A stretch of DNA of 42,391 nucleotides from Clostridium sp. (GTDB lineage Bacteria; Bacillota; Clostridia; Clostridiales; Clostridiaceae), in assembly GCF_016650035.1 (NCBI RefSeq), contig NZ_JAENWM010000027.1, positions 1 to 42,391 of the forward strand. The letters run 5' to 3'. The notes under the pieces are model-generated. The model ran no database searches, was not told the DNA's origin, and saw only the letters and a list, made by a program, of their open reading frames with translations. This document shows positions 10,901 to 42,391 of the stretch, in pieces. Made by a program: the position numbers and the translations under genes. Position 1 is the stretch's first letter. Every line of letters begins with the position of its first letter.

Positions 10901-10910
10901 TCGTTTTTTA

Positions 10911-28700: not shown

Positions 28701-29007
28701 AGGAACAGCTAAATTAATGCAGGGGGAAGGTTTAGATGTGGTAGAGGTTGTGAAAAATAATCAAGGAACTATAGATATACCAGAAATTTTAAAAAGCAAA
28801 GAATTGTGCTTAGTTATTAACACCCCTACTAAAGGAAATGATTTAAAAAGAGAAGGGTTTAGAATACGAAGAACTGCACTAGAACGTTCTATTGGAGTAA
28901 TCACTACACTAGATACTGTACGCGCCATGGTGGACGTAATAAAGAAAAATATTTCAGCTAGCACGCTAGAAGTATTTAACCTTGAAGAATTAGACTCTAT
29001 TAAATAA
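25786..29007 (+). CDS. carB: carbamoyl-phosphate synthase large subunit CarB
   Basis: A 1073-residue synthetase with two homologous ATP-grasp halves (about 1-400 and 545-930), an oligomerisation domain between them and a C-terminal MGS-like allosteric domain (about 935-1073). Repeated motifs GSGPI.IGQ (residues 12 on and about 560 on), GGQT and EINPR.SR / EVNPRASR mark the two halves. It supplies carbamoyl phosphate to arginine and possibly pyrimidine synthesis; the ARG boxes upstream suggest this copy serves arginine. AAAGGAGGA precedes the ATG. Confidence 0.98.
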
Positions 29008-29052
29008 TGGCAAAACTATAAAAAATTCCTAATTAATAATAAAGTGCATGTA

Positions 29053-29076
29053 ATGGGGTGGTTTACCCCACCCCAT
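29053..29076. repeat. GC-rich stem-loop between carB and the MBL gene
   Basis: ATGGGGTGG and CCACCCCAT form a perfect 9-bp stem with a 6-base loop, between convergent genes. There is no T-run on either side, so it may be a factor-assisted terminator or an RNA 3'-end stabiliser. Confidence 0.6.
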
Positions 29077-29154
29077 ATATATTCAAAGATTTCGCATTGT
29101 AAAAGAATATGCTAATCATATATTTCTAAATTTTTATCTTATTAGACTTTAAAT

Positions 29155-30000
29155 TTAATATACAGTAGACTCTATTATGTTACCTGTATTATTGTATAAA
29201 AATCTTTCCCCGAATTGTCGTTTTATTTCTTCAGCTGCTTTTTCTCCTGTACAATGGGATACCCCTATGATTTTTATATCTTTTTCCTTCAAAAAATCAA
29301 TTGTTTTATTTAGTCTTTGCTCATCTGCTTCTACTAAATGAGTTCCCCCAATTATACCATAGATTGGAAGCCCAGTACGTTCTATAATGGTCTCTAAAAT
29401 ATTAACTATCCCTACATGAGAACATCCTACAACAACAAATAAACCACGCTTACCCTTTAATACTAATACTATTTCGTCATAAAAGTCATCTAAAATATAT
29501 TTTTCATCTTGTTTAATTTGAAATCTTTTATTAGGTAATTCAAAATCATTATTTCTTTTAAAATTAGCAAATACCATTATATTTTCGGTAATATAAAATA
29601 TATCTTGTTTAATATATTTTATTGCAATATTATTTTTATGTATATATCCCTTTTCAAAAGAATTGCCGAGATACTTGTAATTATCTCCTTCTATTGTTCC
29701 ATACTTTTCATTAAAAAAATCTTCCCCTACAATTAATTTATATGAGTTTGAAGTTTCCTCAACAAGTTTTCTAAATCCTCCGCTATGGTCATAATGTCCA
29801 TGACTCATCATAACGTAATCTAATTTATTCAAATCAATATTTAGTGTTTCAGCATTTTTAATAAAGTCCCCGCTCTTACCAGTATCAAATAAAATCTTCA
29901 TCCCATCAATTTCCATATAAAGAGACAATCCATGTTCATTGTATAATTTTATATCCGCACTTGAATTATCTTCAATAAGAGTTGTTATTTTTAAGTTCAT
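29155..30000 (-). CDS. MBL-fold metallohydrolase
   Basis: A 281-residue metallo-beta-lactamase fold protein with the dimetal motif H67-x-H69-x-D71-H72 (SHGHYDHSGG), FDTGKSGDF before it, GCSHVGI and a C-terminal SHCTGEKA. It resembles the branch annotated in anaerobes and methanogens as dihydropterin-ribofuranosylaminobenzene phosphate synthase-like, but the actual substrate is not known. I start at ATG 30000 behind GCGGGTG; a GTG three codons upstream overlaps that site. It follows the second DUF134 regulator by 69 bases and appears to be the last gene of the radical SAM operon. Confidence 0.85.
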   Translation of the reverse strand: MNLKITTLIEDNSSADIKLYNEHGLSLYMEIDGMKILFDTGKSGDFIKNAETLNIDLNKLDYVMMSHGHYDHSGGFRKLVEETSNSYKLIVGEDFFNEKYGTIEGDNYKYLGNSFEKGYIHKNNIAIKYIKQDIFYITENIMVFANFKRNNDFELPNKRFQIKQDEKYILDDFYDEIVLVLKGKRGLFVVVGCSHVGIVNILETIIERTGLPIYGIIGGTHLVEADEQRLNKTIDFLKEKDIKIIGVSHCTGEKAAEEIKRQFGERFLYNNTGNIIESTVY

Positions 30001-30069
30001 TTTAAGCACCCGCTTTCATATTATTAAATATTATTTTAAAGATGATTTAACAGCATCACAGATGATGAT

Positions 30070-30438
30070 TTAACCTTTGTTGTTTCTACCATGCCTATGT
30101 CTATGACAAATACAATCGTCACAATTTTCTCTGTCGTCAAAATCACTGCATAGCTTATAATCGCCACCTTCTATTTTTAATATTTTACCATTTACTAAAG
30201 TATCTGCTATTTTTTTGCGAGCATCATCATATGTTCTTTGTAATGTAGAACGGGCAACCCCCATTACATTTGCACTTTGCTCTTGATTTAAACCTTCTAA
30301 ATCTATTAGCCTTATAGTTTCATATTCTTCTACTGTCATAATTATTGATTCATTAACTGTTTCCACTAAATCAATAGGACCAAATTTAACAATTTCAGGC
30401 AACGTACAAACTCTTCTCCATTTTTTAGGTCTTGCCAT
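30070..30438 (-). CDS. DUF134-family DNA-binding protein (second copy)
   Basis: A 122-residue regulator of the DUF134/COG1342 type. It has the [14 protein letters not shown] start, a sigma-70 region 4-like helix-turn-helix ([22 protein letters not shown], then [19 protein letters not shown]; about residues 36-82) and an IEGGDYK segment. The C-terminus is short, with C-x2-C-x-C and a His-rich tail ([13 protein letters not shown]) that could bind metal. Partner genes of this family are typically NifX-like proteins, as here. It lies 29 bases after the first copy. Confidence 0.88.
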
Positions 30439-30467
30439 TATTTAATCTCCTCCGTTGCTTTAAATTC

Positions 30468-30908
30468 TTAAGTACAATCATTACACCACTTTTTACAAAT
30501 TTTTGATTTTTTAACACAAATAACTGTATCAGAACCACAATCAGGACAAATATGTTTGTCTTGTTCATAATTTAATTCATATATACTATTGCAATTGTTA
30601 CATTTAAATTCACAAAATTTTGTCCTGTAATTACCGCCACTTATCCTTATAGCTTTTCCTTCGGTTAAAGCAATAGCCACCTTTTTTCTTGCACTATCTA
30701 TAATATTTTGAAAAGTTTGCCTTGATACTTGCATTTTTTCACCACATTCTTCTTGATTCAATTCTTCAATATCCTTAAGCCTCATTGCCTCAAGTTCTTC
30801 TACTTTTAAAGCTATTTCTTCAATCTTACATTTAGGCTTACCCCAGGGGATAAAATAAGTATCCTCTGGAAAAAACTCTACTCTTCTAAATTTTATTGGT
30901 CTTGGCAT
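30468..30908 (-). CDS. DUF134-family DNA-binding protein with Cys-rich tail
   Basis: A 146-residue relative of the next gene: MPRPIKFRRVEFFP start, helix-turn-helix (EELEAMRLKDIEELNQEECG, then VSRQTFQNIIDSARKKVA; about 43-87) and ISGGNYR. The last 48 residues hold nine cysteines: a CxxC...CxxC zinc ribbon or Fe-S site (CNNC, CPDC) and an extra CVKKSKICKKWCNDC tail. This suggests sensing of a metal, cluster or redox state. GGAGG ribosome binding site; 28 bases after the radical SAM gene. It is a candidate autoregulator of this operon. Confidence 0.88.
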   Translation of the reverse strand: MPRPIKFRRVEFFPEDTYFIPWGKPKCKIEEIALKVEELEAMRLKDIEELNQEECGEKMQVSRQTFQNIIDSARKKVAIALTEGKAIRISGGNYRTKFCEFKCNNCNSIYELNYEQDKHICPDCGSDTVICVKKSKICKKWCNDCT

Positions 30909-30936
30909 TTTAATTCCTCCTGCATTTATATATTAT

Positions 30937-31863
30937 TTATTTTAATCTATAAGTAATAAATCCCTTATAATCTATATGGTTTATAGTATTATCCAAATTT
31001 AATCTTTTAATAATATTATCAATATATTCACATTTTCTAGAATTTAAAAAACTTTTGATTTCATACTGATTCATTGGATGTCTTTTAATAATACTTAAAA
31101 TAGCTTGATAATCATCTTTGATTCCGCTAGAAAATCCAACGGAAACTAAATTTTCTATAGATATACCACCCAGCATTTCTATAGCCATATTCATGTTTCC
31201 ATTACTAATAGTTTTCACATATTCCTCAGCTGGTGGTCTTGCAGGGGTATTAATATATAATCTGTGGTATTTTATTTCTTTAATTAATAGCTTTAATTTT
31301 TGAAGTGAATCACTGTCATCATTAATTCCATCTATAAGCATTATTTCAATCCATAATTGTCCCTTATAAATTTTTGAAAATTCAACAAGTCCATTATAAC
31401 ATTCCATAAAGTTTAACTTAGGATAAGGCCTATTTATTCTTTTAAAAGTATCTTCATCATAAGCATCTAATGACGGAAGCACAATATCTGCTTCACACAA
31501 TTCATCCCTAACTGTTTTATCATGGAGCAATGCTCCATTCGTAATAACAGCTACAGGTTTAGACGTAAGTTCCTTAATTTTGCCTATTAATTCACCAAGT
31601 TTTAGATAGAGAGTTGGTTCACCCTCACCCACTATTGTAACCACATCAAATTCAGATCCACTTTTTATATAAGTCTTAAATTCTTCTATAATGTCAGAAA
31701 CAGAGAAAAATTCTAAACGTTTATTAGACAATTTATCTGTTCTTCCAAGTTGACAATATATACATGAATAATTACACGTTTTTTTTGGTATTGGACTTAT
31801 TCCTAAAGATTCTCCCATTCTTCTTGAAGGTACTGGACCATATACAAACTTTGTTTCATTCAT
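30937..31863 (-). CDS. radical SAM protein (COG0731 type)
   Basis: A 308-residue radical SAM enzyme with the family beginning YGPVPSRRMGESLGISPIP and the cluster motif C30-x3-C34-x2-C37 (CNYSCIYC). GEGEPTL is the SAM-contacting GGE-like motif, followed by TNG and NTPARPPAEE. The C-terminal 60 residues look like a winged-helix (RHPMNQYEIKSFL). COG0731 includes wyosine synthase-like enzymes and many anaerobe proteins of unknown role; there is no flavodoxin domain here, and the gene context (DUF134, NifX) does not suggest tRNA modification. It lies 28 bases after the SPASM gene. Confidence 0.88.
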   Translation of the reverse strand: MNETKFVYGPVPSRRMGESLGISPIPKKTCNYSCIYCQLGRTDKLSNKRLEFFSVSDIIEEFKTYIKSGSEFDVVTIVGEGEPTLYLKLGELIGKIKELTSKPVAVITNGALLHDKTVRDELCEADIVLPSLDAYDEDTFKRINRPYPKLNFMECYNGLVEFSKIYKGQLWIEIMLIDGINDDSDSLQKLKLLIKEIKYHRLYINTPARPPAEEYVKTISNGNMNMAIEMLGGISIENLVSVGFSSGIKDDYQAILSIIKRHPMNQYEIKSFLNSRKCEYIDNIIKRLNLDNTINHIDYKGFITYRLK

Positions 31864-31891
31864 AATTACTCCTCCATTTGCTAAATTTATA

Positions 31892-33283
31892 TTACTTGAT
31901 CTTATTATTTTCTAATAATTTATTTTTCTTTTTATTATTTCTATAATATTGTAATGCAATAGCATATTCAACTCTTTTGCTTTGCATTTTACATCCAATT
32001 TCGTAAGGCGTTTTTATATTTCCAGTTGAATTAAAATTATTAGCTTGACAACCTCCACTACAATAAAATCTTGCCCAACATTTTTTGCAGTCTGGTTTGT
32101 TATATATATTAGCCTGTCTAAAAATGCTTGGCATTTCTTTGTTTTTAATTCCCTCAAACACATTTCCCATAAGGAACCTTGTATTTCCTATAAACTGATG
32201 GCAAGGATATATATCTCCTTCCGGTGTTACTGCTATGTATTCAAACCCAGCTCCGCAACCTGATATTCTTTTGTAAATACATGCTCCTCCATTAATATTA
32301 ATGTTAAAATGGTAAAATATTACATCATCATGAAATAGTAGTTCATCAAAAATTTTATCGTATTCATCGTATATTTGTTCTAAATGTTCTTCTTTAATAG
32401 AAAGCACATTATCAGCTGGAAGTACTACTGGTTCTATTGAAATTTCTTTGAATCCAAGATCTATAAAGTGTTTAATATCTTTAGAAAAATCCAAATTTTG
32501 AGCTGTAAATGTTCCTCTTATATAATATTGTTTTTTAGATTTATGCCTCATTTGGACCATAGTTTTAATTTTAGGAAGAATATCATCATAAGTCCCATCA
32601 CCATTAATTCTCGTTCTTATATTGTCTTGTACATCTTTTCTACCATCAATGCTCAATACAATATTAACCATATTTTCATCTAAATATTCCATAATATCAG
32701 GAGTTAGTAACGTTGCATTTGTTGTAATTGTAAATCTAAAATTTTTATTATGTTGTTTTTCTAGTCCTCTTGCATAATCAACAGTTTTTTTAACTACCTC
32801 CATATTTAAAAGAGGTTCTCCACCAAAAAAATCTACTTCAATATTCTTTCTTGAGCCTGAATTTTGCAATAAAAAATCAATGCTTTTTTTAGCAACATCA
32901 AAACTCATGAGTATCTTTTGCTTATCATAACCTTCGCCATCAGCAAAGCAATATTTACATCTCAAATTACAATCGTGCGCTATATTAAGACACACAGCTT
33001 TTATATAATCAGGTTCCTTTTCAAATTTTTTAGCAATAGGTTCATATGCATCCTCTGAATATAATTGCCCATTTTTTATAAGTTCCTCTATTTCATCATA
33101 ACATTCATTTAACACATCTTTATCATATTTTTCTCTGTATTTATTTATAACATCATTTCTACTTTCAACACCATCATCAGAAAGGATATCATAAATGATT
33201 TTATCCACCACATGAATAGCGCCCGAACTTACATCTAAAATAAAGTAATCACCTTTGCATATGAATTTATGTATATTCCTCAT
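31892..33283 (-). CDS. SPASM radical SAM peptide maturase (SCIFF-maturase-like)
   Basis: A 463-residue radical SAM/SPASM enzyme. The N-terminal 80 residues (IHKFICKGDYFILDVSSG, then a helical part) resemble the peptide-binding RRE domain of CteB-type SCIFF maturases. The SAM cluster is C105-x3-C109-x2-C112 (CNLRCKYC), with FFGGEPLL after it. The SPASM region carries GCGAGFEYIAVTPEGDIYPCHQF and CKKCWARFYCSGGC, for two auxiliary clusters. CteB makes Cys-to-alpha-carbon thioether links in a six-cysteine peptide. No such peptide is encoded just upstream; a Gly-rich 57-aa gene is there instead. I start at ATG 33283, nine bases after GAAGGT; the ATG 21 bases upstream has no ribosome binding site. 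Confidence 0.85.
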   Translation of the reverse strand: MRNIHKFICKGDYFILDVSSGAIHVVDKIIYDILSDDGVESRNDVINKYREKYDKDVLNECYDEIEELIKNGQLYSEDAYEPIAKKFEKEPDYIKAVCLNIAHDCNLRCKYCFADGEGYDKQKILMSFDVAKKSIDFLLQNSGSRKNIEVDFFGGEPLLNMEVVKKTVDYARGLEKQHNKNFRFTITTNATLLTPDIMEYLDENMVNIVLSIDGRKDVQDNIRTRINGDGTYDDILPKIKTMVQMRHKSKKQYYIRGTFTAQNLDFSKDIKHFIDLGFKEISIEPVVLPADNVLSIKEEHLEQIYDEYDKIFDELLFHDDVIFYHFNININGGACIYKRISGCGAGFEYIAVTPEGDIYPCHQFIGNTRFLMGNVFEGIKNKEMPSIFRQANIYNKPDCKKCWARFYCSGGCQANNFNSTGNIKTPYEIGCKMQSKRVEYAIALQYYRNNKKKNKLLENNKIK

Positions 33284-33380
33284 TGGATTAATACCTTCTT
33301 TCATTTTTTCTTTTATTTATTAAAAATCAATAACAAATAAGAGGTAGATTACCACCCCTTATTTATTACTTATCAAATTA

Positions 33381-33554
33381 TTATCTTTTATTTTTAGGAT
33401 TATTTGTATTACCTAGTCCTCTTTTAGTTCCACGTCCCATTTTAAGTCCTAAGCCTCCAACTACAGCTGCAACTTTGGCTACGTTGCATAATCCTAATCC
33501 TCTTCCTGTTTTTGGTCCCATTCCTGTTGGACCTGTACCGTCTCTTCTTGACAT
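33381..33554 (-). CDS. 57-aa Gly-rich DUF5320-like protein
   Basis: A short gene behind AAAGGAG with a start MSRRDGTGPTGMGPKTGRG followed by a single Cys in LGLCNV, then a small Ala/Val/Gly-rich segment and a basic tail (KMGRGTKRGLGN, ending KNKR). The DGTGPxGMG-x-x-TGRG-x-G motif is the signature of DUF5320-type proteins that accompany NifX-like and DUF134 genes in anaerobes; their function is unknown. It is the first gene of the radical SAM / DUF134 operon and has its own TTGACA promoter with palindromic sites. A paralogue at 39643-39909 shares both the N-terminal motif and the promoter. Confidence 0.82.
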   Translation of the reverse strand: MSRRDGTGPTGMGPKTGRGLGLCNVAKVAAVVGGLGLKMGRGTKRGLGNTNNPKNKR

Positions 33555-33576
33555 AACATCGTCTCCTTTTTATCTT

Positions 33577-33633
33577 GAGCATATACCCTTTATAATTACT
33601 ATTATACTCTATTTTGGGTATATGTCAATAACT
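33577..33633 (-). promoter_or_regulatory. promoter and paired operator of the DUF5320-1 / radical SAM operon
   Basis: On the minus strand TTGACA (33623-33628), 16-base spacer, TATAAT (33601-33606). Two related sites flank it: GGGTATATGTC (33616-33626) overlapping the -35, and GAGCATATACCC (33577-33588) after the -10, 39 bases centre to centre. Positions 33589-33633 match 39947-39991 at 41 of 45 bases. Confidence 0.8.
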
Positions 33634-33645
33634 AATGTGATAATG

Positions 33646-34137
33646 TTAAATAAGTTCAATTTTAGAATAATCAATATGACCTTTATCATCAACTACATTT
33701 CTGTCAGTATGCATATATTCAATTTTGCCTACAAACATTTCATGTGAACCCGTAAGTATAGAATCTACTACCTTGCATTCTATATTTATAGGACAATCTG
33801 ATAATAATGGTGCACGCCCCTTTACTCCTTCTTCAAACTTTATATTAAGTTTTGCAAATTTATCCTCGTCTCTACCACTAGTACTACCCAAATAGTCAAA
33901 CATTTCCTTCTGATCTTTAGTAGCTATATTTACTACAAATGAACCTGTTTCTTTCACGATTTTATGAGAATATCGTGATGGAACAATACCTACCATAATC
34001 ATTGGTGGATCATAACTACAATTACAACAATAAGCTACTACTAATGCATTATTTTTACCATCAAGGCCTCTACAAGAAACTATCACTTTAGGCATTGGTT
34101 GAAGACAAGATTTCATGTTTGCTTGAATTTTTTCCAT
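33646..34137 (-). CDS. flavin reductase-like domain protein
   Basis: A 163-residue FMN-binding split-barrel protein of the flavin reductase (flavoredoxin-like) family. It has PKVIVSCRG, then YDPPMIMVGIVPSRYSHKIVKETGSFVVNI, the usual FMN-phosphate segment, and later DCPINIECKVVDSI and HEMFVGKI. Such proteins transfer electrons or reduce flavins in anaerobes. Its stop codon lies just before the -35 box of the DUF5320-1 promoter; upstream, NifX-1 ends 90 bases away on the same strand, with no clear terminator between. GGAGG precedes the ATG. Confidence 0.87.
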   Translation of the reverse strand: MEKIQANMKSCLQPMPKVIVSCRGLDGKNNALVVAYCCNCSYDPPMIMVGIVPSRYSHKIVKETGSFVVNIATKDQKEMFDYLGSTSGRDEDKFAKLNIKFEEGVKGRAPLLSDCPINIECKVVDSILTGSHEMFVGKIEYMHTDRNVVDDKGHIDYSKIELI

Positions 34138-34227
34138 TTTAATTCCTCCATTTTATACAGTTTTATTTGTACAACTTATTTATATAATAACCATTCTAAA
34201 ATACAAAGCTTATAAAATTATGTGCGT

Positions 34228-34566
34228 TTATTGTATATGTTCATGGCAAACAGTACCTGTTGATTTTAATTCACCACTTATATATTTTTGTACTGCGTCA
34301 TCACTTAATCCTTGTGCACCAACTACTACCTCAATACCATTTTCATTGAATAAGTTTTGTGCTGTTTCTCCCATTCCACCTGCAATAATAATATTGACAT
34401 TTAATTCTTTCAAAAATATTGGAAGATATCCAGGCTTATGTCCTGGATTTGCAGTAAAACTCTTACTTACTGTTTTACCTTCCTCTACCTCATATATTGT
34501 AAAACCATCACAATACCCAAAATGTCCACTTACATTACTTTCCTCAGTTGCCACTGCTATTCTCAT
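34228..34566 (-). CDS. NifX/NifB-C-like (COG1433) protein 1
   Basis: A 112-residue protein of the dinitrogenase iron-molybdenum cofactor biosynthesis family. It has the fold's markers MRIAVATEE, VSGHFGYCDGFTIYEV, IIAGGMGETAQNLF and GIEVVVGAQG. In nitrogen fixers these domains carry FeMo-co precursors; stand-alone copies in non-fixing anaerobes are of unknown function. There is no nif structural gene here. It is the last gene of the NifX2-MinD2-MinD1-NifX1 operon, 49 bases after MinD1, behind GGGAGG. Confidence 0.9.
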   Translation of the reverse strand: MRIAVATEESNVSGHFGYCDGFTIYEVEEGKTVSKSFTANPGHKPGYLPIFLKELNVNIIIAGGMGETAQNLFNENGIEVVVGAQGLSDDAVQKYISGELKSTGTVCHEHIQ

Positions 34567-34615
34567 TTATAATTCCTCCCTATATTTAATTTAATAAATT
34601 ATTTTACACAGAACA

Positions 34616-35467
34616 TCAAAGTTTAAATAAGTCTTTAATATTGCTCCACATATCTTCAATAGCTATTTCGGCTATACTCTCTTTGTAACAAGTAATTGGT
34701 TTTAACTCATTTATAGATTTCATAACAACATCATCATATGGAATTTTACCAACTATTTTCAAACCTTTATCATGAGCGAAGTCTTCTATTTCTTTAGCTA
34801 CTTCTTCATTAATATCATATTTATTTATACAAACCATGGTAATAACTCCAAAATGTTCACATAACTCTACCACTCTCTTTAAATCTCCAAGACCTGATTT
34901 TGTAGGTTCAGTAACAGCGAGTACCGCATCGCTCCCTGTTACTGATGCTATAACAGGACATCCAATACCTGGCGAACCGTCTAATATAGTTAATTTATTA
35001 TTGTCACTAAATTTTTTGCCATTTTTCCGAAGAAGCGTTACTAGAAGTCCTGAACCATCACTACCTATATCCATTTCTGCTCTTGAAATTATACCTTTAT
35101 CTAACTTAGTAATAAATGTTTCTGCTGTTTTTTCTGATTTTAATTTTATAGCATTTTGTGGGCATATAAGTGTGCAAGCTCCACACCCTTCACAAGCAAA
35201 TGAATTTATTTTGCAATTTTCTATAGCTTCGAATTTACACACTGTCTCACATTTACCACACTTACTACAAAGAGGTTCATCTATTACAGCTTTTTTACCA
35301 CCTATAAAATCATTTTTGTAAGTATCCTGTCCTTTGTAAAACATATAAAGATTAGGTGCATCTACATCACAATCGATTCTTGTTACATCCTTAGCAAGTT
35401 CAGCTAGTGCTGTTGCAATTGTAGTTTTGCCCGTTCCACCTTTACCACTTAAAATTACAAGTTCCAA
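34616..35467 (-). CDS. MinD-like P-loop ATPase with inserted ferredoxin domain (1)
   Basis: A 283-residue COG1149-type ATPase. The deviant Walker A is GKGGTGKTT (8-16), Walker B is ILDGSPG, and VTEPTKSGL and INKYD follow. Between strands, residues 63-110 carry two [4Fe-4S] motifs: C67-x2-C70-x2-C73-x3-C77 and C92-x2-C95-x2-C98-x3-C102. The family resembles Mrp/NBP35 cluster carriers in its ATPase part, so ATP-dependent Fe-S or electron delivery is plausible but not shown. It begins with TTG at 35467 behind AAGGAGG, and overlaps the end of MinD2 by 13 bases. Confidence 0.92.
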   Translation of the reverse strand: MELVILSGKGGTGKTTIATALAELAKDVTRIDCDVDAPNLYMFYKGQDTYKNDFIGGKKAVIDEPLCSKCGKCETVCKFEAIENCKINSFACEGCGACTLICPQNAIKLKSEKTAETFITKLDKGIISRAEMDIGSDGSGLLVTLLRKNGKKFSDNNKLTILDGSPGIGCPVIASVTGSDAVLAVTEPTKSGLGDLKRVVELCEHFGVITMVCINKYDINEEVAKEIEDFAHDKGLKIVGKIPYDDVVMKSINELKPITCYKESIAEIAIEDMWSNIKDLFKL

Positions 35468-36294
35468 AACAACACCTCCTTTACTTCCTTTGAAATTTCG
35501 TTAAATAGAATTTTATGATATAAATCATCATATAATACTTCTCCCTTAGAATAAATTACTGCTGTGTTTTTACTATAAGGTATAGTACCTAGCAACTTTA
35601 TTTTTTCTTCCCTACAATATCTTTTTATTATATTATCTTTTTCGTCATCTTTATTTATAACTATACCAAAAGGTATATTATACATTTTTACAAGTTCTAC
35701 AGCCATTTTCAAATCATGAAGTCCAAATTCTGAAGGCTCTGTAACAAGTATTGCTCTATTAGCATATTTCAGTCCATTTACTACACTACAAGAAGTACCT
35801 GGAGGACAATCAATTAAATTAACTCCCCCCGATATACGTTTAAGCAATTGTCTAATAACAGGAACTGCCATAGGTTCATTCACATTTAAAATTCCTCTAC
35901 TGCATTCTATGTTTCTTGCTTTTCCGCTTTCAATTTTACCTGTTTGTCTTTTATTGTAGGTTATAGCATTATATTTACATGCAAGTTCACAAGCTCCACA
36001 TCCATGACATAATTTAGAAAAGAGTAAAATTTCATCTTTCACTTTTGCAAGAGCATTAAATTGGCATACATTTACACACGCTCCACAAGAAGTACAGTTA
36101 GCTTTATTTATAATTGGATACTCTACCATAACTTTTTCTGTTTTATCTACTTCAGGTTTTAGAAACAAGAACCCATTTGGTTCTTCAACATCACAGTCTA
36201 TATAATTGGCTTCTAATGCAAGAGCGAGATTAGTTGAAACTGTAGTTTTACCCGTTCCTCCTTTTCCACTAAGAACTGCTATATTTATTTTCAT
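35455..36294 (-). CDS. MinD-like P-loop ATPase with inserted ferredoxin domain (2)
   Basis: A 279-residue paralogue of the next gene: Walker A SGKGGTGKTT at the N-terminus, YIDCDVEEPN, two ferredoxin motifs (CTSCGACVNVC and CHGCGACELAC; about residues 61-106), NLIDCPPGTSC as Walker B, and VTEPSEFGL. The lysine of the deviant Walker A (GKGG) implies dimerisation across the ATP site; two adjacent paralogues suggest a heterodimer. I start at ATG 36294, eight bases after GGAGG and one base after the NifX-2 stop; a start further upstream would overlap NifX-2. Confidence 0.92.
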   Translation of the reverse strand: MKINIAVLSGKGGTGKTTVSTNLALALEANYIDCDVEEPNGFLFLKPEVDKTEKVMVEYPIINKANCTSCGACVNVCQFNALAKVKDEILLFSKLCHGCGACELACKYNAITYNKRQTGKIESGKARNIECSRGILNVNEPMAVPVIRQLLKRISGGVNLIDCPPGTSCSVVNGLKYANRAILVTEPSEFGLHDLKMAVELVKMYNIPFGIVINKDDEKDNIIKRYCREEKIKLLGTIPYSKNTAVIYSKGEVLYDDLYHKILFNEISKEVKEVLFWNL

Positions 36295-36295
36295 T

Positions 36296-36661
36296 TTATT
36301 TACCTCCACCATGATATGCAGGACCAGACATTTGTATTTCTTCTAGTTCTCCTTTATTATATTTCAAAAGTGCTGAGCTTATATCAATGCTTTCACACTT
36401 ATATGCTTTAATTTCTGCTTTTTCAATAAGTTCGAAAGCATTGGGACCAAGATTACCTGTAATAATAACATCTATATTTTCGTCGATTATTTGGTTAGAT
36501 GCAATAATTCCTGCCCCACCACCAGCATTTTGACCCTTGTTCTCTATAACTTTAACTTCTCCACTTTTAGTATCATGAATTTGAAAATATTCACACCTTC
36601 CAAACCTAGTATTTAATAAATCCTCTGTAGTTTTCCCTGTTGATGAAATCACTATTTTCAT
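36296..36661 (-). CDS. NifX/NifB-C-like (COG1433) protein 2
   Basis: A 121-residue NifX-type protein: MKIVISSTGK, NTRFGRCEYFQIHDTKSGEVKVIENKG, then GGGAGIIASNQIIDENIDVIITGNLGPNAF, and a short Gly/His tail YHGGGK. The SRFGR-type segment and GGGAG loop are typical. First gene of the four-gene operon, behind TGGAGG, under a promoter with TGGCATTTG-type sites. The tail could bind a metal, but it also encodes the ribosome binding site for the next gene. Confidence 0.9.
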   Translation of the reverse strand: MKIVISSTGKTTEDLLNTRFGRCEYFQIHDTKSGEVKVIENKGQNAGGGAGIIASNQIIDENIDVIITGNLGPNAFELIEKAEIKAYKCESIDISSALLKYNKGELEEIQMSGPAYHGGGK

Positions 36662-36784
36662 TGTTTACCTCCAATATTTTTATTATATTCGTTACTATAC
36701 AATTTTAAATCAGTTTCTTATATTTAAAATCTGTATCTACATCGACATGTAGTGTACTCAATCATAAAACTGATCTATGCATAT

Positions 36785-36843
36785 TGGCATTTGCCACTTT
36801 CACTTTTTATAATACTCCCAATATTAGTTATTGTCAAATGCCA
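36785..36843 (-). promoter_or_regulatory. promoter and paired operator of the NifX2/MinD operon
   Basis: On the minus strand TTGACA (36832-36837), 17-base spacer, TATTAT (36809-36814). TGTCAAATGCCA (36832-36843) covers the -35 and TGGCATTTGCCA (36785-36796) lies after the -10; read on the same strand they are versions of one 12-bp element (TGGCATTTGACA and TGGCAAATGCCA). Confidence 0.7.
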
Positions 36844-36854
36844 ATTGATTTCGT

Positions 36855-36904
36855 GTAAAAAAATAATAGTAAAGTTTAAAATCGATTATTAACTTTACTA
36901 TTAT
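36855..36904 (-). terminator. terminator of the metal ABC transporter operon
   Basis: A perfect 14-bp stem (36863-36876 with 36891-36904; core AGTAAAGTT / AACTTTACT), 14-base loop and a run of seven T on the minus strand. Confidence 0.88.
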
Positions 36905-36923
36905 ATATAATTATATTATTTTA

Positions 36924-37754
36924 TTATAATGTATGTGGCTTAACTTTCTTCCTTAGCAATTTAGATGATATAAAAAATATAATATAAGTACTTACCGCTA
37001 CAATTATTATAGAGGCTCCAGAAGCAATATGAAACTTATATGATATATAAAGTCCTAATAGTGAAAATATCACACCAAATAAAATAGAAAGAAGCATAAT
37101 TTTTCTTAAATCAAATGTAAATAATTTAGAAATAGCAGGTGGAACTGTTAAAAGTGCAATTATAAGTATTATTCCAACTACCCTTATAAGTACAACTACG
37201 CTAAATGCTATAAGTATAAATACCACATACTCCATCAATTTAACATTAATGCCAACTACCTTTGAAAATTCCTCATCAAATAGATAGGCTTTTATATTAT
37301 TAAAAAGTGCTATTACGATAAAAATAACAATAGCGTCCAATCCAACCATTATAGAAAGATCTAATTTTGAGACTGTAAGTATGTCCCCAAAAAGATAAGA
37401 TGATATATCTGGAGGATATCCAGGAGTAAGCGATATAAATATAATCCCAAGCGCCATACCTAATGACCAAAACATACCTATAATAGTATCAGTATTCACT
37501 TTTGATTTTCTATTTATCTCTACTATACCAAAAGATGATACTACAGCAAATATAAGAGCGCCTATTATTGGTTCTATGTTTAAAAAATAGCCCATACCCA
37601 CTCCACCAAATGCAGCATGAGCAATACCTCCACTCATCATCACAAGCTTTTTTTCTACAACTATCGTTCCGATAATACCACATATTATACTTGCAAGCAC
37701 TGCTCCAATTACTGCATTTTGTAAAAACGTATATTTGAAAATTGCATCTATCAT
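36924..37754 (-). CDS. metal ABC transporter permease (ABC-3, ZnuB/MntB-like)
   Basis: A 276-residue membrane protein with about eight hydrophobic segments. SGGIAHAAFGGVGMGYF and GINVKLMEYVVFILIA followed by RVVGIILIIALLTVPPAI are hallmark motifs of the zinc/manganese ABC-3 permeases. Its ATG follows the ATPase stop directly (TAAATG). Last gene of a three-gene importer operon. Confidence 0.94.
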   Translation of the reverse strand: MIDAIFKYTFLQNAVIGAVLASIICGIIGTIVVEKKLVMMSGGIAHAAFGGVGMGYFLNIEPIIGALIFAVVSSFGIVEINRKSKVNTDTIIGMFWSLGMALGIIFISLTPGYPPDISSYLFGDILTVSKLDLSIMVGLDAIVIFIVIALFNNIKAYLFDEEFSKVVGINVKLMEYVVFILIAFSVVVLIRVVGIILIIALLTVPPAISKLFTFDLRKIMLLSILFGVIFSLLGLYISYKFHIASGASIIIVAVSTYIIFFISSKLLRKKVKPHTL

Positions 37755-38519
37755 TTAATTCCCCTCCTGATGACTTCTAAGCACCCTATGAGGTATAGCA
37801 CCATGAGATATAGCATCTACTGGGCATCCATAAACGCTGTCCATTGTATCTTTATCAAGTTCAGGTTCTCCATGATAAAATAGCTTCTGATTAAAACAAG
37901 CTATTTTATCTACATAAGAAAAAACAAATCCTGTATCATGAGTCACTACAATTATAGTCATATCCTTATTAATATTTTTAAGCAATGAATAAATACTAGT
38001 TTTTGATTGTACATCAAGACTTGCAGTTGGCTCATCTAAAAGTAGAAGTTTAGGTTCTGTACAAAGTGCCCTTGCAATTAATACCTTTTGCATCTGTCCA
38101 CCAGAAAGTTGCCCTATTTGCCTGTTCCTAAGTTCATATATTTCTAACATGCTCATTATATTTTTAGCATATTCCATATCTTCTTTAGAATATTTCCGTA
38201 AAAAATTCATACCAAATTTCAGCCTTCCCATAAGTACTACATCTATTACATTTATAGGAAAGGTTTTTTCAAAACTAGAAAATTGAGGTACATACCCTAT
38301 AGAATTTCTTTTATTATGCGGATTTTCACCATACACTTTTACCTGCCCTGACGTAGGTTTGATTAAGCCTAATATCACTTTTAAAAGTGTTGACTTACCT
38401 CCTCCATTAGGACCTAAAATCGCAACAAATTCCTTATCTTTAATAGTTAAATCCACATCCTTTAGTGCATTTAAATTTTCATAATCCATACTTAAATTTT
38501 GTATTTCAACTGCATTCAT
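37755..38519 (-). CDS. metal ABC transporter ATPase (ZnuC/MntA-like)
   Basis: A 254-residue ATPase: Walker A GPNGGGKST, Q-loop GYVPQ, signature LSGGQMQKV, Walker B LLLDEPTASLD and H-loop VTHD. The C-terminal region has a YGCPVDAISHGAIPHRVLRSH stretch with Cys and three His, a possible metal-sensing tail often seen in zinc/manganese importers. It starts one base after the substrate-binding protein stop. Confidence 0.95.
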   Translation of the reverse strand: MNAVEIQNLSMDYENLNALKDVDLTIKDKEFVAILGPNGGGKSTLLKVILGLIKPTSGQVKVYGENPHNKRNSIGYVPQFSSFEKTFPINVIDVVLMGRLKFGMNFLRKYSKEDMEYAKNIMSMLEIYELRNRQIGQLSGGQMQKVLIARALCTEPKLLLLDEPTASLDVQSKTSIYSLLKNINKDMTIIVVTHDTGFVFSYVDKIACFNQKLFYHGEPELDKDTMDSVYGCPVDAISHGAIPHRVLRSHQEGN

Positions 38520-38520
38520 T

Positions 38521-39414
38521 TTAATTCATCTCCATTGCTTCTTTAAAAGTTTTCGCCATTTTTTCTATGTTGTTTATATAATCTGAGGAAAGTGGCTCTA
38601 CCATTTCAGCCTTTCCATCAATTTCTAAGGCAAAAGTTTCCGATTGTTTGCTATCTATTTCTGCTTGATAAAATATAACCACTATATCTTCTTTCTTAGC
38701 AAAATCTATTGTATTTTGTAAATCCTGAATCGTTGCTTCTTTTCCTTCCTGTTCAAGTGATACCATCTCAAGTCCATATTCATCTGCAAAATATCCAAAA
38801 GCTGGATGGTAACATATAAATGCCTTTTTCATAAGTGCCAACAATGAATCTTTTGTATCTATATCAAGTTGTTCAAGCTTATTTATATAATCTTTACCAT
38901 TTGTTTCATAAAAGCTCTTATTAGAAGGATCTTTTAAAGAAAGTTCACTTACTATTTCCTGTACCATAACCATTGCTCTTTTAGGTGAAAGCCATATATG
39001 AGGATCTCTCTCTCCAGATTCAAACTTTCTGTCAGGATAAACCTTTGAAACTACATCTGCCATATTAACTATCTTTATATCTTTATTAAAATCTTTTATT
39101 TTAGGCAATATACTTGCTTTTTCAGTAGGAACACCGATAGTAAAATATACAGAAGCGCTACTGAGTTTTTCCATTATATCTGGGCTAGGCGCAAAATTTT
39201 CCGGACTTTTTCCTGGTGGTATCATTGTAATGACATCCACCTTCTCCCCACCGACAGCTTTTACAAAAGTTTCCTGTGGCACTATAGACACAGCAACATT
39301 AATTTTCTGTTTTATATTTGTATAATTAGTTGTTTTGCTAGCCCCACAGGCAGAAAAAAATAAACTAGAAAAAACAACATAAAATACCAATGATTTTTTA
39401 CTTGTTTTCAACAT
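38521..39414 (-). CDS. metal ABC transporter substrate-binding lipoprotein (ZnuA/TroA-like)
   Basis: A 297-residue cluster A-I binding protein. The N-terminal signal peptide ends in the lipobox FFSAC, with lipid-anchored C23. H139 (DPHIWLSP) and H203 (CYHPAFGYFADEYGL) match metal ligands. The first usual His (in DPHxYxP) is replaced: the segment reads PPGKSPENFAPSPD, with E72 at that place. There is no long His-rich loop. Zinc or manganese is the likely cargo; the changed ligand leaves this open. GGAGG precedes the ATG, and a long palindrome overlaps the leader. Confidence 0.9.
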   Translation of the reverse strand: MLKTSKKSLVFYVVFSSLFFSACGASKTTNYTNIKQKINVAVSIVPQETFVKAVGGEKVDVITMIPPGKSPENFAPSPDIMEKLSSASVYFTIGVPTEKASILPKIKDFNKDIKIVNMADVVSKVYPDRKFESGERDPHIWLSPKRAMVMVQEIVSELSLKDPSNKSFYETNGKDYINKLEQLDIDTKDSLLALMKKAFICYHPAFGYFADEYGLEMVSLEQEGKEATIQDLQNTIDFAKKEDIVVIFYQAEIDSKQSETFALEIDGKAEMVEPLSSDYINNIEKMAKTFKEAMEMN

Positions 39415-39433
39415 TTATATAACCTCCTATACT

Positions 39434-39462
39434 ATGTAAATACAAACTATTTGCATTTACAT
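39434..39462 (-). promoter_or_regulatory. 29-bp near-perfect palindrome, candidate Zur/Fur-family operator
   Basis: ATGTAAATACAAA, then CTA, then TTTGCATTTACAT: 12 of 13 arm positions pair. It lies between the -10 box and the ribosome binding site of the metal importer operon. A metalloregulator of the Fur/Zur type is the natural candidate; DtxR/MntR is the alternative. Confidence 0.7.
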
Positions 39463-39470
39463 TTAACTAT

Positions 39471-39498
39471 ATTATAACATTTTGCTAAGATTAGTCAA
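39471..39498 (-). promoter_or_regulatory. metal importer promoter
   Basis: On the minus strand TTGACT (39493-39498), 16-base spacer, perfect TATAAT (39471-39476). Confidence 0.75.
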
Positions 39499-39568
39499 CA
39501 TTAAAAACTTCATCTTCCTAACAACTATTATATAAAATCTTACGTCTAAACTTCCATTACTCTAATAA

Positions 39569-39620
39569 AACAACAGACTGTACAATTATTTCATATGAAA
39601 TAATTGTACAGTCTGTTGTT
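39569..39620. terminator. 52-bp perfect palindrome, probable terminator
   Basis: Arms 39569-39594 and 39595-39620 are exact reverse complements with no spacer, beginning AACAACAGACTG and centred on CATATG. It follows the second DUF5320 gene and is followed on the minus strand by TTTTATTAG. The likely role is termination before the metal importer; the length and perfection are unusual. Confidence 0.6.
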
Positions 39621-39642
39621 AATAAATCATCTAAAATTATAC

Positions 39643-39909
39643 TTAATTGTCATCCTGCGTAGTATTCAATTGGTTATTTATTAAATTGAGTCTATTTTCA
39701 AGAATAGCTTTTTCTTCCGAAAGCAAATCACTTTGATTTACAGGACTCATTGTATTATTAAAACTATTCCATCCAAAACCTCCTCTGCAACCAATTCCCA
39801 TTCCTAAGCCTCTATTTACGCCTAAACCGTTAGTAACATTGCAAAATCCCATTCCTCTTCCTGTGTTTGATCCCATTCCCATTGGACCTGTTCCATCTCT
39901 TCTAGCCAT
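39643..39909 (-). CDS. 88-aa Gly-rich DUF5320-like protein with coiled-coil tail
   Basis: The paralogue of the 57-aa protein at 33381-33554. N-terminal MARRDGTGPMGMGSNTGRG and a Cys in GFCNV repeat the same motif; a Gly-rich part with one more Cys (GMGIGCRGGFGW) follows, then a helical C-terminus with heptads (LLSEEKAILENRLNLINNQL; about residues 62-81) typical of DUF5320. It has its own promoter nearly identical to that of the first copy and is probably monocistronic. GAGGAG lies before the ATG. Function unknown; co-occurrence with NifX-like genes is the main clue. Confidence 0.85.
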   Translation of the reverse strand: MARRDGTGPMGMGSNTGRGMGFCNVTNGLGVNRGLGMGIGCRGGFGWNSFNNTMSPVNQSDLLSEEKAILENRLNLINNQLNTTQDDN

Positions 39910-39934
39910 GAAAACATCTCCTCTTTTTTATTTT

Positions 39935-39991
39935 GGACATATGTCCTTTACGATTACTATTATACACTGTTTTGGGTATATGTCAATAACT
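39935..39991 (-). promoter_or_regulatory. promoter and paired operator of DUF5320-2
   Basis: On the minus strand TTGACA (39981-39986), 16-base spacer, TATAAT (39959-39964). GGGTATATGTC (39974-39984) overlaps the -35; a perfect 12-bp palindrome GGACATATGTCC (39935-39946) follows the -10. The spacing of the two sites, 39 bases, equals that in front of DUF5320-1. Confidence 0.8.
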
Positions 39992-40070
39992 TTATATTAT
40001 TATTTTATATATCATTTTAAACAAGACTATATCTTCATTAATTTACATATAAAGATTTTTTTTACAAAAT

Positions 40071-40114
40071 AATAGACCATACTATTATTTATGCCAATAA
40101 CAGTATGGTCTATT
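40071..40114 (-). terminator. terminator of the iscU-CoA-CGGC operon
   Basis: AATAGACCATACT and AGTATGGTCTATT form a perfect 13-bp stem; the loop can pair further (TATT/AATA). ATTTTG and more AT follow on the minus strand, just after the CGGC gene. Confidence 0.75.
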
Positions 40115-40128
40115 GTTAAAAATACATA

Positions 40129-40572
40129 TTAATCATAATTTTTCATTGTTTCTTCTGAGTCCTCAAATAATTCTGGAGCAATGTCACTCATGTGCATTTC
40201 CTTCCAGAAAGACATTTTTTCATGATTTGAAAAATACTTCATAGGAATTGGATGTGTTCCAATTACTACAGATACCTTATAATGAGTCTCAATAAACTCT
40301 TTAAATTTTAAAATATATGGACATGGTGGATATCCAACTACAAGGCCTGTAGCTAAATGAATTACTTCAGCTCCATTTTTAATCATTTCTTCTGGAACAT
40401 ATTCTATGTTTCCACCAGGGCATCCACCACAATACGAATATCCAACTACTTCGACTTGTTCTTCTGCAGGATATATTGAAAATCCTCCTAGACGTTCTCT
40501 TAAACCTCTAAAACATTTTCCACCGCCGCAGTTCTGATAACGTCCACAAATAATGATTCCTATTTTTTTTAT
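40129..40572 (-). CDS. CGGC-domain protein with probable ATA start
   Basis: A 147-residue protein of the CGGC family. The sequence reads KKIGIIICGRYQNCGGGKC at the start, then YCGGCPGG (the name-giving motif) and HLATG; these cysteines are thought to bind metal or a cluster. Relatives normally begin MKKIGI. Here the codon in place of that Met is ATA (40570-40572), six bases after GGGGGT (40579-40584), and no in-frame ATG, GTG or TTG lies nearby. The only upstream ATG (40659) is inside the CoA-binding gene, gives 29 extra non-family residues and ignores the ribosome binding site. I therefore call ATA as the start. Last gene of the iscU operon. Confidence 0.75.
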   Translation of the reverse strand: MKKIGIIICGRYQNCGGGKCFRGLRERLGGFSIYPAEEQVEVVGYSYCGGCPGGNIEYVPEEMIKNGAEVIHLATGLVVGYPPCPYILKFKEFIETHYKVSVVIGTHPIPMKYFSNHEKMSFWKEMHMSDIAPELFEDSEETMKNYD

Positions 40573-40628
40573 AATAGTACCCCCACAAATTATACTCTTA
40601 TATAAAAACTCTAATAACCAATATAATT

Positions 40629-41027
40629 TTAAATTTTGTTTAATTCTACATATAAACATTCATGAAAAACCATATTAAGCTCATTATTTTTAGCCTTATT
40701 TAAAACTTGTGGATCATAAGAGCCTGGTTGGAACCATACATTTTCTATTTTACATTCCACAATATCATCTATAGCCTTTAAAGAAAGTGTGGGATTCACT
40801 ATAACATTTACCGCATCTACCTTCTCTGGTAATTCCTTTAATGAATGATATATTTTAACTCCATTTATTTCGTCGTATTTAGGGTTTATACCGTATACTG
40901 TATACCCTTTTTCTTTAAGTTTCATTAATATTTTATATCCAAACTTACTTTCATTTGGTGACGCTCCAATTAACGCCCATTTCTTCATTTTAAACATTTC
41001 ATCCCTTAGTGTTTTCATATCTTTCAT
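40629..41027 (-). CDS. CoA-binding domain protein (YccU-like)
   Basis: A 132-residue Rossmann-fold protein of the CoA_binding_2 family: WALIGASPNESKFGYKI nucleotide loop, YGINPKYDEINGVKIYHSLKELP, and VWFQPGSYD. Members bind CoA or related nucleotides; no enzymatic role is known. It sits between an IscU-like scaffold and a CGGC protein (26 and 56 bases away), which is likely a single operon. GGAGG is eight bases before the ATG. Confidence 0.9.
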   Translation of the reverse strand: MKDMKTLRDEMFKMKKWALIGASPNESKFGYKILMKLKEKGYTVYGINPKYDEINGVKIYHSLKELPEKVDAVNVIVNPTLSLKAIDDIVECKIENVWFQPGSYDPQVLNKAKNNELNMVFHECLYVELNKI

Positions 41028-41053
41028 ATATAATTCCTCCTATATTTTGTGAT

Positions 41054-41437
41054 TTATACCCAGGGCTCCAGTCCCTGTTTCTCTCTATAATCATTTATGG
41101 CCACATGTATAACTTCTTGTGCTAAAACCGAGCAATGCATTTTAATTGATGGAAGTCCGTCTAATGAATCTGCAACGGTTTTATTTGTGATTTTCCAAGC
41201 TTCTTCAAGAGTTTTCCCCTTAATAATCTCCGTTGCCATGCTACTTGATGCTACAGCAGATCCACATCCAAAAATCATAAATTTTGTATCTACTATTAGA
41301 TTATTTTTAACCTTAATAAATATTCTCATTATATCACCGCATTCTGCATTCCCAACTTCACCTATGCCATCAGCATCTTTAATGACCCCAACATTTCTAG
41401 GATTCATAAAATGTTCCATTACCTTATCACTATACAT
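41054..41437 (-). CDS. IscU/NifU-N-like Fe-S scaffold protein
   Basis: A 127-residue scaffold with the three conserved cysteines C33 (NAECGD, with the release-promoting D35), C58 (FGCGSAVASSS) and C102 (KMHCSVLA). In place of the IscU LPPVK chaperone motif it has LPSIK before C102. It assembles [2Fe-2S]/[4Fe-4S] clusters from a cysteine desulfurase, which is not encoded next to it. I start at ATG 41437, seven bases after GGAGG; an upstream ATG adds ten residues and swallows the ribosome binding site. Promoter at 41515-41543. Confidence 0.92.
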   Translation of the reverse strand: MYSDKVMEHFMNPRNVGVIKDADGIGEVGNAECGDIMRIFIKVKNNLIVDTKFMIFGCGSAVASSSMATEIIKGKTLEEAWKITNKTVADSLDGLPSIKMHCSVLAQEVIHVAINDYREKQGLEPWV

Positions 41438-41514
41438 CTTGTAGCCTCCATAATATAAAAATTTCATATAATATTAGTTTATTTCCTTTATCTATATTAG
41501 CTTTCAACAATTTT

Positions 41515-41549
41515 ATATTACTACCATACACAATTATTGTCAAATGCTA
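41515..41549 (-). promoter_or_regulatory. iscU operon promoter with TGGCATTTGACA-like site
   Basis: On the minus strand TTGACA (41538-41543), 17-base spacer, TAATAT (41515-41520). The -35 is embedded in TAGCATTTGACAATAAT, which matches the NifX2/MinD promoter over TTxGCATTTGACAATAAxT (17 of 19 bases). Confidence 0.65.
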
Positions 41550-41649
41550 ATTTAAACGGTGTCTATATTTTCGTATCCTCTTTTCCACAAACTATAAAGC
41601 TACATACCTATATTACTTACTACAAAAATATTTTATTTGCAATTATAAA

Positions 41650-41679
41650 TGCATATATTTTGTTTTTATATCCATACTA
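41650..41679 (+). promoter_or_regulatory. sigma-G-like forespore promoter
   Basis: TGCATA (41650-41655), 17 bases, then a perfect CATACTA (41673-41679). This fits the sigma-G (and partly sigma-F) consensus of spore formers and lies about 40 bases before the start of the small Gln/Ala-rich gene. Confidence 0.6.
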
Positions 41680-41717
41680 GTATTGAAATGAAAACTAATA
41701 TTTAGGAGGTATTTTTT

Positions 41718-41891
41718 ATGGCAAAAGCTAAACAATATGTAGACCAAAGTATGTCAACTGTACAGAGCACAGTTACATCATTACAACAAGCACTTACTTC
41801 AGCAGAAAAAGCAGATAATAAAGCTAAAATTCAAGCAGCAATAGATTCTCTTAATTCTGCATCTCAACAATTATCTAACTTTAAAGATTAA
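41718..41891 (+). CDS. 57-aa helical small protein, probably forespore-expressed
   Basis: A short gene behind a strong AGGAGG with ATG 41718-41720 and TAA 41889-41891. The product is rich in Gln, Ala, Ser and Lys with no Cys, Trp or Pro; it can form two amphipathic helices (about 5-29 and 33-54) and is probably a small soluble helical-hairpin or coiled-coil protein. I do not recognise a family; it is similar in style to DUF1657-type or small acid-soluble spore proteins. A sigma-G-like promoter upstream and a terminator downstream show a stand-alone unit. Confidence 0.75.
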   Translation: MAKAKQYVDQSMSTVQSTVTSLQQALTSAEKADNKAKIQAAIDSLNSASQQLSNFKD

Positions 41892-41896
41892 AATCA

Positions 41897-41942
41897 AAAA
41901 AAGGAATCCTATAATTATTTAAATCATAGGATTTCTTTTTTT
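41897..41942 (+). terminator. terminator after the 57-aa gene
   Basis: ATCCTAT (41906-41912) and ATAGGAT (41926-41932) core extended by A-rich/T-rich flanks to about 16 bp with one G-U pair, followed by T. It could also act for the convergent ABC ATPase. Confidence 0.85.
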
Positions 41943-41980
41943 ACTATTTATGACTTTACGATCATCACAATGCATTAAAC

Positions 41981-42391
41981 CTACAAATATACTATATCTG
42001 CATTCAAATATTCTATTTCAGCTTTCACGTGTGTAACAATTACTATTAATTTATCCGACGAAAGCTTAATTACCTGATCCATTATCTGATTTTTAAGATC
42101 TTCCTCGAGCCCCTTAAATGGCTCATCCATCAAAATAATTCTTTTGTCATAAGCGAGCGCCCTTGCAATTGCTACTCTACGCTTCATCCCACCACTTAAT
42201 TCTTGTGGTCTTTTATTCTTAATGTCAGTTAATTGCATATCATTCATATATTCTTTGGCCATCTTAAGGCCTAGTTCTCTATCCTTCAAAACCAAACTAA
42301 TATTCTCAATTGCCGAAAGCCATGGAATCAACCTATCTTCCTGAAAAACCATTGAAATATCCTCTGTAATTTTAACTTCACCTTCATCTGG
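41981..42391 (-). CDS. ABC transporter ATPase, TauB/SsuB/NrtD type (5' part outside window)
   Basis: The 3' 136 codons of an ATPase, continuing past the window edge. MVFQEDRLIPWLSAIENI contains the Q-loop in the form typical of nitrate/sulfonate/taurine importers; signature LSGGMKRRVAIARALAY, Walker B IILMDEPFKGLE and H-loop THVKAE follow. Walker A is outside. The C-terminus is short, ending right after the H-loop region (NADIVYL). The cargo is not determinable here. Confidence 0.88.
   Translation of the reverse strand, partial: PDEGEVKITEDISMVFQEDRLIPWLSAIENISLVLKDRELGLKMAKEYMNDMQLTDIKNKRPQELSGGMKRRVAIARALAYDKRIILMDEPFKGLEEDLKNQIMDQVIKLSSDKLIVIVTHVKAEIEYLNADIVYL

Follow-up and report, generated by a model that had tools for sequence, protein, structure and literature searches.

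The closest described relative of the regulators considered here is DeoR of Bacillus subtilis, a protein of the SorC family. Its operator consists of two halves and overlaps the -35 region (PMC11229326). The closest counterpart of the controlled genes is found in the orp operons of Desulfovibrio vulgaris. According to PMC6345978, they encode two related proteins with ferredoxin motifs together with an orange protein (ORP) and have a sigma-54-dependent promoter. Here, we compare with these systems a stretch of Clostridium sp. DNA of 42,391 nucleotides (assembly GCF_016650035.1, contig NZ_JAENWM010000027.1, positions 1 to 42,391, forward strand), called the window below. It contains two genes of the DUF5320 family, and their promoters, named P1 (33589-33633) and P2 (39947-39991), both lie on the minus strand. 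Each promoter is flanked by two 12-bp palindromes with a centre-to-centre distance of 39 bp. Based on the analysis described below, we consider it about 85% probable that P1 and P2 belong to the sigma-A type and that their repressor is the DUF134 protein 'a' (30070-30438), predicted to sit as dimers on the paired palindromes.

On the minus strand, P1 and P2 share 41 of 45 bases, and over their first 25 codons the two DUF5320 genes share 62 of 75 bases (83%). These values agree with a preliminary description of this DNA, which had also claimed a second site 39 bases away beyond the -10, including one perfect palindrome; such a site is present at both promoters. The DNA upstream of P1 and P2 shows no resemblance, with 4 to 9 matches per 20-base block. 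Both promoters match TTGACA-16-TATAAT at 12 of 12 positions and rank as the top two among 94 promoter-like sites in 29000-42000. A single site is nothing unusual in the AT-rich window: with up to two mismatches allowed, 13 matches were counted, against 6.5 expected. A genome-wide search for the pair, proposed earlier, was run, and in the 4.0-Mb window genome the strict pair was found at P1 and P2 only. It was found in none of the 16 other genomes of the genus; one of these, G008, carries two DUF5320 promoters built in the same way, whose sites fall slightly outside the strict pattern. Five more places with TTGACATATRYYC in the window genome have no nearby second site on reading, so they add no members to the regulon of class A, as we call the P1/P2 type. 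An RNA element at the promoters was considered and rejected: the region 33300-40200 gave no hit to Rfam, and the transcript begins downstream of site 1. The features are collected in Table 1.

Table 1. Positions of the paired promoters and of the genes behind them in the window.
Feature	Positions	Strand	Remarks
P1 site 1, TGACATATACCC	33616-33627	-	left half inside -35 TTGACA (33623-33628)
P1 -10, TATAAT	33601-33606	-	
P1 site 2, GGGTATATGCTC	33577-33588	-	about +7 to +18, counted from a rule-of-thumb start point
P2 site 1, TGACATATACCC (same as P1 site 1)	39974-39985	-	left half inside -35 (39981-39986)
P2 -10, TATAAT	39959-39964	-	
P2 site 2, perfect palindrome GGACATATGTCC	39935-39946	-	
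Class B site 1, TTGGCATTTGACAA	36831-36844	-	-35 TTGACA (36832-36837) is the right half
Class B site 2, TGGCAAATGCCA	36785-36796	-	-10 TATTAT at 36809-36814
DUF5320 gene 1, 57 amino acids, first gene of P1	33381-33554	-	PF17253, E 8.7e-12
Radical SAM/SPASM protein, presumed P1 operon	31892-33304	-	
Radical SAM protein, presumed P1 operon	30937-31863	-	
DUF134 protein 'b', 146 amino acids	30468-30908	-	PF02001, E 8.8e-22; helix SRQTFQNII, N at the residue-68 position; proposed class B regulator
DUF134 protein 'a', 122 amino acids	30070-30438	-	PF02001, E 1.2e-24; recognition helix RSTLQRTY, residue 68 is R; proposed P1/P2 regulator
Metallo-beta-lactamase-fold protein, presumed end of P1 operon	29155-30009	-	
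DUF5320 gene 2, 88 amino acids, behind P2	39643-39909	-	PF17253, E 3.2e-20
Class B operon: NifX-like, two MinD/NUBPL-type ATPases with ferredoxin motifs, NifX-like	34228-36661	-	
Flavin reductase-like protein, presumed end of class B operon	33646-34137	-	

In the next step, the pair was followed across sampled relatives, whose loci and genomes carry L and G codes (G000 is the window genome). DUF5320 is patchy: within the genus, 2 of 17 genomes contain it, and within the family, 15 of 116. The comparison of DUF5320 promoters in relatives had been set beforehand as a test, and the pair was present in all 13 DUF5320 stretches (L152-L164), in 11 by the strict pattern and in L153 and L161 by a looser scan. 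The sites change jointly with their palindromic partners in relatives (TGACATATGCCC/GGGCAAATGCCC, TGACATATGTCA twice, TGACATATGCCA/TGGCATATGTCA). A gene-blind pattern, TGACATATRYCN{24,32}GRYAWATG, occurred in 59 of 391 Clostridia genomes and in 51 of 398 genomes of a wider phylum sample, with the reversed pattern as a control in 0 and 1, respectively. The palindrome pair, with bases altered yet still paired, spans 43 genera. We examined the surroundings of 66 distinct pair places outside the window. At 57 of them, a DUF134, DUF5320 or NifX gene starts within 1.2 kb and reads away from the pair, in either direction; Pfam added NifX at L130 and a DUF134-NifX fusion at L138, which gives 59. Of the remaining seven, L140 is located at the end of its contig, and L119 and L120 represent a single repeat that also sits at contig ends, without a regulon gene on the visible side. 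L092, L123, L142 and L147 lack an adjoining regulon gene and were rejected as regulon places.

DUF134 was detected (E up to 0.001) in 167 of the 391 sampled Clostridia genomes: in 57 of 59 genomes with the pair versus 110 of 332 others, as judged from two tables compared by eye, with G357 as a weak case. The two pair genomes without DUF134 are G240, whose place L147 is missed by the stricter pattern, and G383, which is 71% complete. In the case of L138, DUF134 fused to a NifX-like domain (8066-8791, plus strand) is encoded immediately behind a paired promoter, and this fusion ties the regulator to NifX genes.

Promoters of other species resemble P1 to about the same extent as P2 does: 42 of 45 bases at L155, 39 at L163 and 38 at L157, with unlike flanking DNA. 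This bears on a recent duplication, in which a promoter and a DUF5320 gene would have been copied and are still undiverged, with no operator involved. Such a copy would be expected to match both in the promoter and in the coding start, as is the case here, but its resemblance ends sharply upstream of the promoter. Because foreign promoters match P1 about equally well while the flanks are unlike, recent duplication alone is insufficient. The pair with altered yet paired bases over 43 genera refutes it as the sole cause, and we give it hardly any credence. An old duplication maintained by selection is possible. The class-wide recurrence of the pair before DUF5320 and DUF134 genes, together with the co-variation described below, supports the common operator under selection that had been postulated earlier. 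At L160, two identical paired promoters were observed (8704-8750 and 10877-10923); the DUF5320 gene behind the first switches to a different sequence about 35 codons in, and the local DUF134 gene is broken up into two frames.

To relate DUF134 to the operator sequence, 146 DUF134 genes of at least 90 amino acids were collected. A pair was found by a loose scan for 104 of them, 91 remained after thresholds, and 90 after one protein per promoter was kept. The outer bases were unconstrained in the searches and scans, except at the left end of site 1, where the outer base belongs to the -35. Residues are numbered as in the 'a' protein, in which residue 68 belongs to the recognition helix. For the three free outer bases, residue 68 showed the highest adjusted mutual information (AMI) of all well-filled DUF134 columns (0.439, 0.442 and 0.212), and the runner-up columns reached 0.245, 0.281 and 0.203. 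With arginine at residue 68, the outer base was G in 34/39, 33/39 and 22/39 cases; with any other residue it was G in 0/51 for each base. Control proteins from the same operons (NifX from 48, ATPase from 55 and DUF5320 from 56 operons) were analyzed in the same way, and their best column was below that of DUF134 in 9 of 9 comparisons.

The analysis was repeated with a held-out set, the best 80 of 545 loci by DUF134 similarity alone, taken from named genomes; the motif was not used in the choice. Of the 82 DUF134 genes at these loci, 13 were dropped as exact copies of members of the first set; a pair was found for 49 of the others and none for 20. The held-out set shares descent with the first one, and near-duplicates were retained. 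In these best 80 of 545 loci, G was present at the three outer bases in 13/15, 12/15 and 5/15 promoters with R68, and in 3/34, 1/34 and 2/34 with other residues, where one row (L322) is a second DUF134 copy at a promoter already counted with its R copy. For both sets without that copy, the first outer base was G in 47 of 54 cases with arginine versus 2 of 84 with other residues. For a tree, residue 68 was masked and 135 of 139 proteins were used, leaving out the second copy at L322 and three proteins whose helix the pattern failed to read. Arginine at residue 68 changes at least 16 times on this tree, and the observed phi of 0.86 exceeds the maximum of 0.63 among 2000 traits simulated on it. 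On a smaller tree, a lysine clade (L126, L128) lies among arginine proteins, and it has lost the outer G. This co-variation supports the predicted role of DUF134 as the operator binder, for which it had been put forward as the obvious candidate.

A third paired promoter (36785-36844, minus strand) was found between P1 and P2. It was overlooked in the preliminary description, which had recognized P1 and P2 correctly. It precedes a NifX/ATPase/ATPase/NifX/flavin-reductase operon. Site 1 contains the -35 hexamer as its left half in class A and as its right half in this promoter, which we assign to class B. The class B pattern occurred in 9 of 382 genomes, and its control in none. The association with DUF134 was counted in genomes with class B sites only. 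Seven of these nine encode, no more than 5.2 kb from the site, a DUF134 protein whose residue-68 position is N or L. In the window genome, the N-type protein near the class B site is 'b', about 6 kb off, and in G146 the contig ends 200 bases past the site and the N-type protein is on another contig. Class B-like sites were also found in G008, G046 and G268, each of which encodes an N-type DUF134. Stretches L152, L156 and L209, which lack an N/L-type DUF134, were considered as exceptions and dismissed, as the N type is encoded elsewhere in these three genomes. A second class B promoter of the window genome (G000:C141:17747) is located before an Mrp-type ATPase and NifX. Since N/L-type DUF134 accompanies class B sites, 'a' fits P1/P2 and 'b' fits class B. 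A DUF134 regulator encoded in the first operon had been named as the candidate for P1 and P2; the proposal stands for 'a', and 'b' fits the other operator class. Judged from these sequences, the regulator of P1 and P2 is most likely 'a'.

These data also bear on the possibility that a different regulator, encoded elsewhere, binds the sites and that DUF134 is a mere passenger in the same operons. Of the 332 genomes that lack the strict pair, 110 contain DUF134, which agrees with this possibility. Against it, the operator bases follow residue 68 above other columns and above the same-operon control proteins, and the two DUF134 types match the two operator classes. We regard a separate regulator as quite improbable.

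The relationship of DUF134 to proteins of known structure was determined by a PDB sequence search with the DUF134 profile. Residues 39-76 align without gaps (38 residues) to the helix-turn-helix of DeoR (7bhy, E 2.6e-4; 8r7y, E 0.0051). Residues 63 and 68 correspond to DeoR chain residues 39 and 44, that is, to R34 and R39 with an inferred tag offset of 5 (six extra residues). Both arginines are in the recognition helix of DeoR, and in its structure at 3.7 Å, with low stated confidence, R39 is reported to contact bases T14 and G4 and R34 to contact T12 of ATTGAACAAAATTTCAAT (PMC11229326). Extended to 16 bp, the DUF134 site reads ATTGACATATGTCAAT. Its half-site ATTGAC resembles ATTGAA of DeoR, whereas the palindrome is two bases shorter (16 versus 18) and the two DUF134 sites straddle the -10. 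DeoR possesses a sugar-phosphate effector domain, and DUF134 has a short Cys-rich tail instead; a profile search of the 122- and 146-residue proteins revealed no C-terminal sugar-phosphate effector-binding domain, only DUF134 and weak helix-turn-helix and sigma matches. The latter indicate some likeness to region 4 of sigma-70 and extracytoplasmic function (ECF) sigma factors (sigma70-ECF, E 2.7e-4; SigZ, E 5.6e-5; Sigma70_r4, E 6.3e-5 in a fusion relative), and the -35 sequence read by region 4 sits within the DUF134 half-site. The scores are below the cut-offs for sigma-70 family membership (20.6 versus 42.9 bits for TIGR02937, 23 versus 168.65 for SigZ), with no region 2 match.

Several observations weigh against repression by DUF134 'a' through a residue 68 contact. 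Site 2 of P1 (GGGTATATGCTC) is an imperfect palindrome. No pair was found within 5 kb upstream of 42 of the 146 DUF134 genes, and chance may account for part of the weak pairs at the remaining 104; in the newly sampled loci, 20 of 69 genes lack a pair. For the right base of site 2, the lead of column 68 is narrow (AMI 0.212 versus 0.203), the NifX control comes near DUF134 (0.283 versus 0.298), and among the best 80 of 545 loci only 5 of 15 held-out R68 promoters have G there. Only two independent contrasts are on well-supported branches of the tree, too few for significance in a sign test; none is in the wrong direction. The DeoR numbering match depends on the inferred offset. The DeoR contacts are graded as low-confidence by their authors, and in one chain of their earlier domain structure R39 is on the backbone only (PMC11229326).

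According to the proposed mechanism, a dimer of DUF134 'a' would occupy each palindrome, and residue 68 of its recognition helix would read the outermost base pair of each half-site. Site 1 would cover the -35, whose hexamer is a half-site, and site 2 the region of about +7 to +18, just past the likely start. With both regions covered, a bound repressor would keep RNA polymerase off or stall it, and either site alone should suffice. An activator role of DUF134 is compatible with the sequence taken alone, but a consensus promoter (12/12) in which site 1 overlaps the -35 and site 2 lies past the start has the layout of repression. We find activation improbable, somewhat more so than a separate regulator. 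Repression by DUF134 is itself inferred from the position of the sites.

The distance between site centres ranges from 28 to about 45 bp and is mostly 33-41 bp, with peaks at 34, 36, 38 and 39 and good examples at 28 and 31. It shows no 10.5-bp helical phasing, so contact between dimers at a fixed helical phase is unnecessary. The loop or clamp by touching dimers suggested earlier is thus unsupported. A tetramer, in which two dimers touch and clamp the promoter or bend a tight loop, would explain why the sites recur as a pair again and again, and DeoR and CggR, relatives from the SorC family, work in tetrameric form on a pair of half-operators (PMC11229326). The variable spacing argues against it, and the tetramer-forming effector-binding domain of DeoR is absent from the 122-residue 'a' protein. 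We consider it unlikely; plain promoter blocking by DUF134 'a' is simpler.

Both DUF134 proteins of the window are members of their family (87.1 and 78 bits versus a gathering score of 27 for PF02001), and so are both DUF5320 proteins (46.5 and 73.6 bits versus 27 for PF17253). As 'a' is encoded within the presumed P1 operon, its repression would extend to its own gene and to that of 'b'; 'b' in turn would regulate the class B promoter in front of the ORP-like cluster-assembly operon. Orp3 and Orp4 are MinD-type ATPases. The window contains the gene set of the ORP system, namely paired ATPases with ferredoxin motifs and a NifX-like (orange-protein) gene, and in this respect the class B operon is similar to the orp operons (PMC6345978). 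They differ in the promoter: sigma-54-dependent in D. vulgaris and sigma-A-looking with DUF134-type paired sites here, where the scan covered sigma-70-type and paired-site patterns. The target genes point to a predicted control by DUF134 of iron-sulfur (Fe-S) or metal-cluster assembly. Cysteines 97, 106 and 109 are conserved in 79, 81 and 88 of 90 DUF134 proteins. Because of these C-terminal cysteines and the cluster-assembly targets, we propose that an Fe-S cluster or a metal would switch DUF134 off.

A wider reading, which we put forward tentatively and at slightly less than even odds, is that DUF134 proteins are Fe-S- or metal-sensing repressors of ORP/Mrp cluster-assembly genes throughout anaerobes, with a half-site that doubles as the -35 and a one-residue code. 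In such a two-tier circuit, 'a' (R68, GGRCATATGYCC) would control itself and 'b', and 'b' (N, TTGGCAWWTGCCAA) would control the cluster-assembly operons. In titles and abstract starts, we found no published DUF134 regulon or operator (RegPrecise and subscription journals lay outside the search), and the operator 10-mers GACATATGTC, GACATATGCC and GGCATATGCC gave nothing on a DUF134 regulon there. PMC10434189 was rejected as a DUF134 regulator paper, since the passage in question concerns DUF1349. A two-site repressor is of a known kind; the DUF134 family, the operator code and the -35 overlap appear to be new within the literature searched. DUF134, a widespread family for which we found no assigned target, would thereby gain operators, a regulon, a residue-base rule and a physiological setting, and the tuning of orange-protein/Mrp cluster assembly in anaerobes would gain a handle. 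According to PMC5886521, a UPF0251 (DUF134) gene may carry a transposon in rex mutants of Thermoanaerobacterium saccharolyticum after adaptation, which hints at a redox link.

The DUF5320 gene 2 is followed directly by a long hairpin terminator with a T-rich tail (39571-39618, minus strand). P2 may express this gene alone. The radical SAM/SPASM protein of the presumed P1 operon reached 819.7 bits with the model of an ScfB-related orphan maturase (cut-off 855), and the 57-residue DUF5320 protein could be a substrate of this adjoining enzyme. Between the two DUF5320 promoters, genes of ZnuABC-like metal uptake were found (36924-39414, minus strand), and a TTGACT-TATAAT promoter-like site at 39471-39498 may drive them.

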